Source of the DNA: a bacterium | GTDB lineage: Bacteria; UBP6; JAFGXH01 | DNA length: 47,801 nt | Direction: 5' to 3' | Assembly: GCA_027064085.1 (NCBI GenBank) | Contig: JAMOQH010000075.1 | Span: 1-47,801 of the forward strand | Shown: positions 1 to 3,605 of the stretch, in pieces | Numbering within the stretch: the first letter of the stretch is position 1 | How the letters are laid out: every line of letters starts with the position of its first letter | The notes under the pieces: model-generated | Databases searched by the model: none | What the model was told of the DNA's origin: nothing | The model's input: only the letters and a program-made list of their open reading frames with translations | Translations under genes and position numbers: made by a program

Positions 1-600
1 AATGACACATGTGATGACTGTATAAATGGACATTATGATGTGAATAATGACGGACTTGATACAGATAATGATGGTTTATGTAATATAGGTGATGAAGATG
101 ATGACAATGATGGAGTAAATGATAATAATAATGACGGAACTCCATTAGATAACTGCCCACTTGTTGTAAATGAAGACCAAATTGATACAGATAATGATGG
201 CGTAGGTAATGCCTGTGAAGATGATAAAGATGGAGATACAGTAAAAGATGCAGATGATAATTGTCCTCTTGTTGTAAATGAAGACCAATTAGATACAGAT
301 AATGATGAAATGGGTGATGCCTGTGATAAAGATGATGATAACGATACAGTAAATGACAATTCTGATAATTGTCCTCTTGTTGCAAATGAAAATCAATTAG
401 ATACTGATAACGATGGAATTGGTGATGCCTGCGATAATAAAGATGATAGTATCACAAACCCTGACGATATGAAGTATAAAGGTAGTTCAATGATTGGATG
501 TACTTATGGCAATAATACATCTAGTGGAGCTTATTTATTAATAATGTTTATGTTGATTATTTTAACTTTGAAAAAGTTAAAAAAACTAAATAAAAACTAA
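1..600 (+). CDS. Thrombospondin type-3 repeat surface protein with C-terminal membrane anchor (5' end outside window)
   Basis: The frame is open from base 1, so the gene begins before the window; a GTG at 40 is internal. The visible part encodes about 199 residues. It opens with a Cys-containing stretch (NDTCDDCINGHYDV) and continues with at least four thrombospondin type-3 repeats of the form DTDNDGxGxACD and DNCPLVxNExQ, whose acidic side chains bind calcium. After an acidic/Ser linker comes MIGCTYG, a hydrophobic segment (AYLLIMFMLIILTL) and a Lys-rich tail (KKLKKLNKN). This Cys-hydrophobic-basic ending resembles MYXO-CTERM-type surface sorting signals, and the subtilisin at 1587-3605 ends in the same way. 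It is probably a calcium-stabilised stalk or adhesin on the cell surface; the function of the missing N-terminal part is unknown. Confidence 0.85.
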   Translation, partial: NDTCDDCINGHYDVNNDGLDTDNDGLCNIGDEDDDNDGVNDNNNDGTPLDNCPLVVNEDQIDTDNDGVGNACEDDKDGDTVKDADDNCPLVVNEDQLDTDNDEMGDACDKDDDNDTVNDNSDNCPLVANENQLDTDNDGIGDACDNKDDSITNPDDMKYKGSSMIGCTYGNNTSSGAYLLIMFMLIILTLKKLKKLNKN

Positions 601-953: not shown

Positions 954-1590
954 ATTTTTTGTTTTTCCACTCTATTTTTAGTAATTCCTTATATACTTTT
1001 AAAAATTCTCTTTGATTATGTTTAGCTTTTTTTAAAACATCAGATAAACCACTTATTTTAAATAATTTTTTTATATCATTTTCCTTTTTAATGTTTATAA
1101 GTTTAAAAAAAAGAATAAAACTTGAAAAAAAGTTATCTATCCATAACTCCGTTTTTAAGTCTTCTTTTTTAGGATTAAAAACTCTCCATTTTATAGGGGC
1201 CTTGTCATTTAACTTTTCTGATATTAAATCTTTTAACAAATAAAAATAATTATAATCATTTTCAAACTGATTTATTATACAACCTGCAACAAATTCATGA
1301 CAATTATTCTCTAATAAATGATACTCAAGCTTTTTACCCACTTCTTTTAAAGATCTTAAAGCAATTTCTTTATTTTGTAGTGGAAAACCAAAACCATCTG
1401 TAGCAATAAAAATCTTCTCCCCTACTCTTTGCTTTGAACTATTTAATAAAGTCCAAGAATCAACGATTCTGACCTCGCCACTTCCATGTAGTTCAACGAA
1501 TCGGTTATTTCCCAAATATATCGCAGAATGTTCTGCAAATTCCATACCACCTATCCCTAGATTAATATATACAATTGCCCCAATTATCAT
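952..1590 (-). CDS. LRAT-like (permuted NlpC/P60 papain-fold) protein
   Basis: The 212-residue protein has the signature of the circularly permuted papain fold of LRAT/HRASLS enzymes. It has an N-terminal His in EHSAIYLG (H21), a second His in FVELHG (H35), and the nucleophile in NNCHEFVAGC (C97). Known members transfer acyl groups or cleave thioester, amide or peptide bonds. The domain fills residues 1-110; the remaining half is Lys-rich and predicted helical with no recognised domain. There is no signal peptide. Its ATG overlaps the TGA of the subtilisin gene (ATGA), so the two are translationally coupled. A role alongside a secreted protease is unclear; it could modify lipids, proteins or cell wall. 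Confidence 0.7.
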   Translation of the reverse strand: MIIGAIVYINLGIGGMEFAEHSAIYLGNNRFVELHGSGEVRIVDSWTLLNSSKQRVGEKIFIATDGFGFPLQNKEIALRSLKEVGKKLEYHLLENNCHEFVAGCIINQFENDYNYFYLLKDLISEKLNDKAPIKWRVFNPKKEDLKTELWIDNFFSSFILFFKLINIKKENDIKKLFKISGLSDVLKKAKHNQREFLKVYKELLKIEWKNKK

Positions 1591-3605
1591 ATCTTAATCC
1601 TATTTTTTATGATAAAAAAAATAAATATAAATATTACGAAATAAAATAAATTTTCAAATTTTCCTTCTCCATAACTACATCCATTATTTTTACTATTTTG
1701 ATAGCTAACAACACAATGTACATTATCACTAACAACATAACCGGAATCACAAAAACATCTAGGAGCCGTATTTATAACTTTACATATACCATGCTCAGAA
1801 CAAGTTATATTGTCACATGGAGTTTTTTGAATAACTTTTGTACATTCTAGATTATCATTACCAATATAGCCCAAATCACAATTACAAGCTTTTGCTCCTT
1901 CTATTTCTATACAATTACCATGATTAGAACATGCAATATTCTCACATAAATTAACATTTGAGTTAAGATATTCTAAAGCATTCTGAGCATTTACTTTTCC
2001 ATATCCCAAATAATTACTATGTCCCTCTTCATTATATCCAGTTCCAATTTTATCACTAGTTGACTTTAAAATATCATAAACTTGATTTTTTGTTAACTTA
2101 TCATTTTTAGATAAAATTAAAGCTATTATACCACTGACAAGAGGAGCCGCAGCCGAAGTTCCACCAAAATATTTAGTATATTTACCTTCATTATCAACAT
2201 CTAAACCTAAATATTCTCTTCCTGAATCTGTTTTTTGATATGCTTTACCATTATCATTATACCCTAGGCTTCCTGTAATATCAGTAGTCCAAATAGCATC
2301 TTTATCACTTCCTAAAAAACCAGTACTTGATGGAGCTATAAAATCTAACTTATTACCATAGTTACTATAATATGCCCTATTTCCATGATAATCAGTTGCT
2401 CCAACAGTAATAATACCATCTAAACCCTCTAGTGAAGTATCTAAAAACTCTCTATTTTCATTTCCTGAGGCAAAGATAACGATACCACCTCTTCCATCTC
2501 TGCCATTTTTTAGAATATTTTTAATACTATCCACTAACATTGGATAAAGATTATTAACATTTACACTAGTATCAAAACCCCATGAATTATTAAAAATATC
2601 AGCACCTTGACTTAAACTCCAATCAAAAGCTTCAACTATCATACTTTCAAGATTATAGCCACTACTTGGCATAACCTTAGAAATTATTAATGAACAATTC
2701 ATGCAAACACCAGTAACTCCGATATTATTATTTCCTTTAGCTGCAATAAGGCCTGCACATGAAGTACCATGTTCTCCCGAATCATAAAATCCTTCACCAG
2801 TAAAATCTTTACTAATAATAATATTCAAATCTTCATGATTTAAATCAGCCCCATCATCTAGTACAGCTATTTTTATATCAGAACTTCCCTTTGTTATATC
2901 CCAAGCCCCCTCAGAACTAATTCCAATATATGAGTTCTCATGATGCCATTGTTCATTATAATAAGTATCATTAGGAATAAATTTTCTTTTAAATAAAGTA
3001 TAAAAATCTGGATAAGCATAATGAAATAAGCCAGTTTCATATAACTTAGTAGAAAGTTTAATTATATTTTCTGAACTTTGTAAACTATAAATATTTTTAT
3101 TAAAATTATAATTTTTTACTATCTTAAGTTTAAAAAGAGAGAGTATCCTATCTTTTTTTACATCATCAATATTTTCTTTAAATTTAATATTAATTTTATC
3201 ACTAATAATAATTGGCCATGATTTATCATCAAAAACATAGGAATCTAATAAGTAATAGTTTTCATTTAAAAATCCTATATCTTCTTTTGTTAGTTTATTT
3301 TTAAATTTGACAACAAAAGAATTTTTATTAAATTGCTTTATTTCTAATATTTTAGGTAAATATTTAATTGAAGATAACTCCTTTTTTAACTCAAGAATAC
3401 TAATGGAGTTGTTTAATTTTAAAGAAATAAAAAAATCACTATGCTTTAAATTAGTAACTTCACCATTAATTTTAATATCACTAGAAATTATAGTAATACT
3501 AAAAAACACTAAAAAATACACAAATTTATACAAAAGACCTCTCACTAAAACAATTAATTTTACTCTATTATAAATAAAAATCAACAAAATAAAGAATTTT
3601 CTCAT
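1587..3605 (-). CDS. Subtilisin-family (S8) serine protease with two EGF-like domains and C-terminal anchor
   Basis: This is a secreted, probably cell-surface endopeptidase of 672 residues. A hydrophobic export signal lies within residues 1-45, then a propeptide-like region to about 205. The S8 catalytic domain has the triad D250 (IAVLDDGADLNHEDL), H279 (GEHGTSCAG) and S484 (GGTSAAAPLVSG), with oxyanion N382 (SGNEN). Two six-Cys EGF-like modules follow at about 554-588 and 597-631. The protein ends with NGCSYG (641-646), a hydrophobic stretch and a basic tail (KNRIKI), matching the anchor of the calcium-repeat protein at 1-600. The start is uncertain: the ATG at 3605 has only AAGGA about 25 bases upstream, and a GTG at about residue 21 would give a cleaner signal peptide. 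It is co-transcribed with the downstream LRAT-like gene. Confidence 0.92.
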   Translation of the reverse strand: MRKFFILLIFIYNRVKLIVLVRGLLYKFVYFLVFFSITIISSDIKINGEVTNLKHSDFFISLKLNNSISILELKKELSSIKYLPKILEIKQFNKNSFVVKFKNKLTKEDIGFLNENYYLLDSYVFDDKSWPIIISDKINIKFKENIDDVKKDRILSLFKLKIVKNYNFNKNIYSLQSSENIIKLSTKLYETGLFHYAYPDFYTLFKRKFIPNDTYYNEQWHHENSYIGISSEGAWDITKGSSDIKIAVLDDGADLNHEDLNIIISKDFTGEGFYDSGEHGTSCAGLIAAKGNNNIGVTGVCMNCSLIISKVMPSSGYNLESMIVEAFDWSLSQGADIFNNSWGFDTSVNVNNLYPMLVDSIKNILKNGRDGRGGIVIFASGNENREFLDTSLEGLDGIITVGATDYHGNRAYYSNYGNKLDFIAPSSTGFLGSDKDAIWTTDITGSLGYNDNGKAYQKTDSGREYLGLDVDNEGKYTKYFGGTSAAAPLVSGIIALILSKNDKLTKNQVYDILKSTSDKIGTGYNEEGHSNYLGYGKVNAQNALEYLNSNVNLCENIACSNHGNCIEIEGAKACNCDLGYIGNDNLECTKVIQKTPCDNITCSEHGICKVINTAPRCFCDSGYVVSDNVHCVVSYQNSKNNGCSYGEGKFENLFYFVIFIFIFFIIKNRIKI

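Follow-up and report, generated by a model that had tools for sequence, protein, structure and literature searches.

The window, a contig of 47,801 nucleotides (JAMOQH010000075.1) from a bacterium of the phylum UBP6 (assembly GCA_027064085.1), encodes two exported-type proteins with similar carboxy termini near its first position. A gene on the forward strand (1-600) specifies a thrombospondin type-3 repeat protein (PF02412, E 1.7e-19), of which 199 residues are present, the 5' end being lost at the contig edge. Its tail (496-597, forward; GCTYGNNTSSGAYLLIMFMLIILTLKKLKKLNKN, then a stop) comprises a GCTYG motif (496-510; Cys codon 499-501), a hydrophobic helix (AYLLIMFMLIILTL, 529-570), and a basic end (KKLKKLNKN, 571-597), with 32 residues after the Cys. 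The second gene (1587-3605, reverse strand) encodes a subtilase of family S8 with EGF-like repeats (PF00082, E 5.8e-45; 672 residues from the listed start). Here the tail (1682-1590, reverse; GCSYGEGKFENLFYFVIFIFIFFIIKNRIKI, then a stop) consists of GCSYG (1668-1682), a helix (LFYFVIFIFIFFII, 1608-1649), and the basic end KNRIKI (1590-1607), all on the reverse strand, with 29 residues after the Cys. A search of genome contigs for relatives of the subtilase returned only distant S8 proteins, from Caulobacteraceae, Phenylobacterium, Salipiger, and Poseidoniales. The tails, helices, and distances were read directly from the sequence, and they confirm the claim of the initial annotation that two unrelated hosts both end in GC[ST]YG, a hydrophobic segment, and a basic tail.

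Between the two tagged genes lie a bacterial class A RNase P RNA (665-956, forward; Rfam RF00010, 218.6 bits) and a gene with an LRAT domain (PF04970; 952-1590, reverse), which overlap by about 5 bases. The LRAT gene also shares 4 bases with the end of the tagged subtilase gene, and cotranscription of the two is therefore probable. Acyltransferases exist among LRAT-family proteins.

The bare motif GC[ST]YG is not enriched at the DNA level in the 3.65-Mb genome (seven matches versus four for the reversed control), and as a strict genome-wide marker it was rejected for that reason. Only three of the seven matches are tail-like: the two window cases and one on contig C80, which lies inside a longer open reading frame (ORF) and is followed by a helix and RKK. 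The wider architecture, unlike the bare motif, recurs far above chance. A first-round profile built from the two window tails only, with no positional information, matched contigs C33 (E 4e-9), C158 (6e-5), C153 (9e-4), C80 (1e-3), C138 (5e-3), and C194 (0.01). The Cys is present in all six of these non-seed matches (E < 0.011), and five lie within 34-43 residues of the stop codon, the sixth being C80. Weaker matches fell on C20, C179, C23, and at two further places on C194, with chance matches also among the weaker ones; C80 excepted, the first-round tails, weaker ones included, start 30-43 residues before the stop codon with the Cys aligned. A second round added C101, C194:3550, C23:13565, C61, C57, and C106; E-values of later rounds are partly circular and those of the first round are not.

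The genome therefore encodes at least 19 tailed proteins, the two of the window included, with the tail at the C-terminus in 18 of them; the end of C57 and the start of C146 carry the same tagged C-terminus, probably an assembly overlap, and were counted once. The consensus of the 19 is [GSN]C[STND][YF], an S/N-rich linker, a helix, and K/R residues; by position relative to the Cys it reads G/S/N at -1, S/N/D/T at +1, Y/F at +2, and G/S/T/N/A at +3. The helix tails have 26-34 residues after the Cys, and their last 12 residues carry a net charge of +2 to +6. All three parts of a MYXO-CTERM C-terminus (Cys motif, helix, and basic end) are thus found in the 19 proteins. The initial annotation had proposed GC[ST]YG with helix and basic tail as a sorting signal to be sought across the proteome, a claim that could not have stood had the motif been confined to the window pair. 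Recurrence holds, on 19 exported-type proteins, but GC[ST]YG itself is too narrow, the rule being [GSN]C[STND][YF].

Most of the 19 hosts are exported-type hydrolases or adhesins. The peptidases comprise five subtilases, a thermolysin (M4), a clostripain (C11), and a papain-like enzyme (C1); the remaining hosts include an amidase 3, a CAP protein, a peptidyl-arginine deiminase, and thrombospondin-repeat, EGF-repeat, and lectin/cadherin-like proteins. Three consecutive tagged genes on one strand of contig C194 (L109, C194:1-12000) encode an EGF-repeat protein, a subtilase, and a thermolysin. Judged by eye, a signal peptide opens most of the tagged proteins whose start is intact; a 131-residue ORF on C20 has none, and the case of the papain-like C23 ORF is uncertain. 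A crude rule-based detector, which misses some that are clear by eye, found one in 9 of 15 helix-tagged ORFs. In the sister genus, too, the majority of tagged proteins have a signal peptide at their start.

Two anchoring routes had also been proposed for this organism, an N-terminal lipobox and the C-terminal tail. The two are not fully separate, since one tagged protein and the fused ORF of C80 start with a lipoprotein-type signal. The tagged protein, on C179 (L107:3674-4453; 260 residues), combines a lipobox-like N-terminal signal (FFIGCSSSS) with a C-terminal Cys tail. In two genera a single ORF was seen in which a Cys-helix-RKK tail is joined directly to a lipoprotein-like signal with no stop between them: one in this genome on C80 (L112:3925-9255; GCSYG...GRKKNLLLLLVASFTIFFYGC) and one in genome G002 on C208 (L207:214-5403; GCSFG...FRKKLKVFLIILSFFIISGC). 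By analogy with the internal MYXO-CTERM of MXAN_5598, each fused ORF perhaps yields a single chain that is cleaved into two surface proteins.

A profile of the 19 tails (E <= 1e-4) gave 20, 5, and 9 matches in the three genomes of the window's family (this genome, G001, and G002, respectively) and none in 58 other genomes, 25 of the same phylum and 33 of other phyla. Tails of the sister genus mostly read GCSF or GCSY, with the layout unchanged. The MYXO-CTERM model TIGR03901 (cut-off 20 bits) has no match in this genome at E <= 10, none in the three genomes of the family at E <= 0.01, and none among 13 tails; the motif is therefore a different one from MYXO-CTERM. Other NCBIfam and Pfam models gave no significant match to the helix tails (JDVT-CTERM matched two, with a best E of only 0.17). 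Elsewhere in the phylum, one tail in each of five genomes of family f3 exceeds the TIGR03901 cut-off (GCGCSTVGD..., with a basic end RRK; CGCSVVGD...; CDCSLIAG..., twice; and CGCTLVAH...), and one in family f4 falls slightly below it (GCSIVTTD...). Because these families of the same phylum hold TIGR03901-type tails, the window tails are best seen as a diverged MYXO-CTERM branch. In genome G037, from another phylum (1.5 Mb; L177, L185), an Mrt-like protease (82.5 bits) accompanies two tails, GGGCSIAP...helix...RRKK, near the TIGR03901 cut-off, which are possibly another variant.

MYXO-CTERM proteins in myxobacteria are processed by a CPBP-family protease, MrtX (TIGR03901, NF040593; PMC11980579). 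Two CPBP proteins were found in this genome. One, encoded on contig C182 downstream of ftsY, scores 91.4 bits against Mrt_core (NF040914; 93.0 in the search of relatives), where the cut-off is 100; it also lies below the cut-offs of MrtP (104.5 versus 250), MrtC (96.8 versus 195), and MrtX (75.1 versus 180). Its counterpart in G001 exceeds the Mrt_core cut-off (103.7 bits), and that in G002 scores 98.8. The other CPBP protein resembles MroQ and ABC-permease fusions. EExxxR, a central His, and HxxxN, the catalytic motifs by which glutamic intramembrane proteases are recognized, are conserved in an alignment of 21 Mrt-like proteases. At E <= 1e-8, Mrt_core has exactly one match in 27 of the 28 genomes of the phylum examined, the exception being a genome that is 65% complete; in a tree of the proteases each family groups together, without resolution of the deeper order. 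No tagged gene was recognized beside the C182 protease gene in this genome, nor was a lipid transferase found. The expectation that a CPBP-family myxosortase homolog would co-occur with the motif was borne out: helix tail and Mrt-like protease occur together in all three genomes of the family, this one included.

Outside that family the tag takes another form. In homologs of the window subtilase from families f2, f3, and f4, only a few residues follow the Cys (SSGCSVTVF, SSGCSAILL, GCGCTLIY, GCGCSLI, and GGCSLIL), giving a short tag, GC[SA]xxPhiPhi-stop, with neither helix nor basic end. As a DNA pattern (GC[SA], four residues, and a stop) it has 354 matches versus 8 for the reversed control in 25 f2-f4 genomes, which are mostly of one genus (g3) and so not independent; 33 genomes of other phyla are at chance level (27 versus 30). 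Short tags in the window's own family were rejected (2 versus 3 reversed, both matches chance ones in ORFs of 21 and 27 residues), as was an earlier pattern, CxC with a final aromatic residue, which was too loose and gave much background. NCBIfam has no model for the short tag, and no paper describing it was found, although its absence from the literature is uncertain.

The short-tagged proteins also appear to be exported. A lenient test found a signal-peptide-like start in all 34 fetched examples with intact starts, but is too permissive, as 52 of 83 other ORFs also pass; a stricter test was passed by 30 of 32 short-tagged proteins and 28 of 58 other ORFs of the same stretches, some of them spurious (p 8e-6). 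The region upstream of the short tag is acidic (32% D/E over 60 residues). Among the ten examples scanned, three are C25 peptidases, and a subtilase and an S15 peptidase also occur, as do a peptidyl-arginine deiminase, an amidase, and a phosphoesterase. Mrt-like protease and short tags co-occur in the f2-f4 genomes, and in f3 and one f2 genome short-tagged proteins are encoded within a few kilobases of the protease gene (L198, L199, L201, and L209; ends GCGCSVVW, CCCACSVIW, and GCSCGLIY). The short tag resembles the eukaryotic CaaX box processed by Rce1 in having its Cys a few residues from the C-terminus, aliphatic residues after it, and an Rce1-like protease in the genome. It differs in sitting on exported bacterial proteins with signal peptides, and also in spacing: CaaX has three residues after the Cys (Cys four residues from the C-terminus), whereas the short tag mostly has five, with a range of about three to seven.

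Homologous proteins carry one tag or the other. The peptidyl-arginine deiminase of this genome has the ending SSCNYNN-helix-KRK, whereas its f2 homologs, at 44-48% identity (E to 1e-127), finish in GGCSLTLV or SGCSAVLL. The window subtilase is 34-37% identical to short-tagged subtilases (E 5e-67 and 6e-65). Sister-family homologs keep the GC[SA] end and drop the helix, so the Cys rather than the helix is the constant part; what persists across tags is a Gly/Ser-Cys-small residue core, and the helix is variable. This suggests that one enzyme family serves both the helix tag and the short tag. For the phylum as a whole, we lean slightly towards a myxosortase/Rce1-like protease serving two forms of one surface tag, helix-bearing in the window's family and CaaX-like GC[SA]xxPhiPhi elsewhere.

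The short ends could instead be a separate system unrelated to the helix tails, only the latter being a MYXO-CTERM variant. Such a separation would fit the occurrence of both forms side by side in f3 genomes and the lack of a helix or basic end on the short form, because of which a short-tag substrate would have to reach a membrane protease in another way. We nevertheless think it rather unlikely, given that the two forms are complementary in distribution, occur on homologous proteins, and share the core just described. The full MYXO-CTERM tail and the short form of f3 show the same core (CGCSVVGD... and CGCSVVW-stop), and f2 genomes keep an Mrt-like protease though no MYXO-CTERM match was found there.

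As for the helix tails themselves, our analysis favors, with a probability of roughly 85%, a Cys-dependent C-terminal sorting signal that would constitute a diverged MYXO-CTERM and belong to a variant of the MYXO-CTERM/myxosortase system. At the sequence level this model has the support of a tail that recurs on exported-type hosts and is absent from the 58 genomes of other families, together with a protease whose catalytic motifs are conserved. The initial annotation had likewise seen a MYXO-CTERM-like tag with a different motif, a proposal that the recurrence on exported-type proteins and the CPBP protease support, with TIGR03901 unmatched. Shared with MYXO-CTERM/MrtX are the invariant C-terminal Cys, helix, and basic end, the exported hydrolases and adhesins, and the CPBP-family protease in the genome; the window family departs from it in its motif, S/N-rich linker, K-rich end, and a protease below the model cut-offs. 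JDVT-CTERM/MrtJ and Synerg-CTERM/MrtS (NCBIfam) are also invariant-Cys C-terminal tags with CPBP proteases of the same group, to whose MrtJ and MrtS models the protease here matches weakly, but JDVT-CTERM/MrtJ has a single target in a two-gene neighborhood (PMC11980579), compared with 19 targets here. GlyGly-CTERM/rhombosortase is similar as a Gram-negative surface tag with a helix and basic end, but its signature motif has no Cys and its enzyme is a rhomboid serine protease (PMC11980579).

That the signal is cut by some other enzyme (an exosortase, a rhombosortase, or an undescribed protease) while the Mrt-like CPBP protein has other substrates is improbable. CPBP proteases have many roles, and the one in this genome falls below every curated cut-off and has no recognized tagged neighbor; against this, signals that pair with Mrt-type CPBP proteases are marked out by their invariant Cys (PMC11980579), the only other CPBP protein found is of the MroQ/ABC-permease-fusion type, and short-tagged genes lie close to the Mrt-like gene in f3 and one f2 genome. 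It is very improbable that the tails are ordinary, uncut membrane anchors on which no sorting enzyme acts, the Cys being structural or lipidated where it stands: helix and basic end alone could hold each protein in the inner membrane, but unrelated proteins share a Cys that lies 26-34 residues from the end and has an aromatic residue at +2, sister-family homologs retain GC[SA] and lose the helix entirely, and the myxosortase-type protease is kept almost throughout the phylum.

Under the sorting-signal model, a tagged protein would leave the cytoplasm by Sec through its N-terminal signal peptide, and the C-terminal helix and basic end would halt it in the inner membrane with the Cys on the outer face. 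The later steps are modeled on M. xanthus (PMC11980579): a transferase would lipidate the Cys, the C182 myxosortase-type protease would cut next to it, the helix being discarded, and the lipidated protein would be moved to the surface. Sister families may use the same route on a reduced, helix-free, CaaX-like end; the simplest guess for how such a tag would reach the membrane protease is that lipidation comes first, as it does for eukaryotic CaaX proteins.

A recently proven sorting system, described for Myxococcota, would thus extend to the motif of another lineage, whose tagged surface proteins go unrecognized because no curated model detects it. If one protease does serve both forms, the membrane helix would be dispensable, and CaaX-like processing would take place on the export side of these bacteria. 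Processing of the short tag by the same protease family would also provide a natural series of substrates, running from helix-anchored to helix-free, that reveals what these proteases read, and would help to tell whether lipidation of the Cys precedes cleavage, an open step of the MYXO-CTERM pathway.
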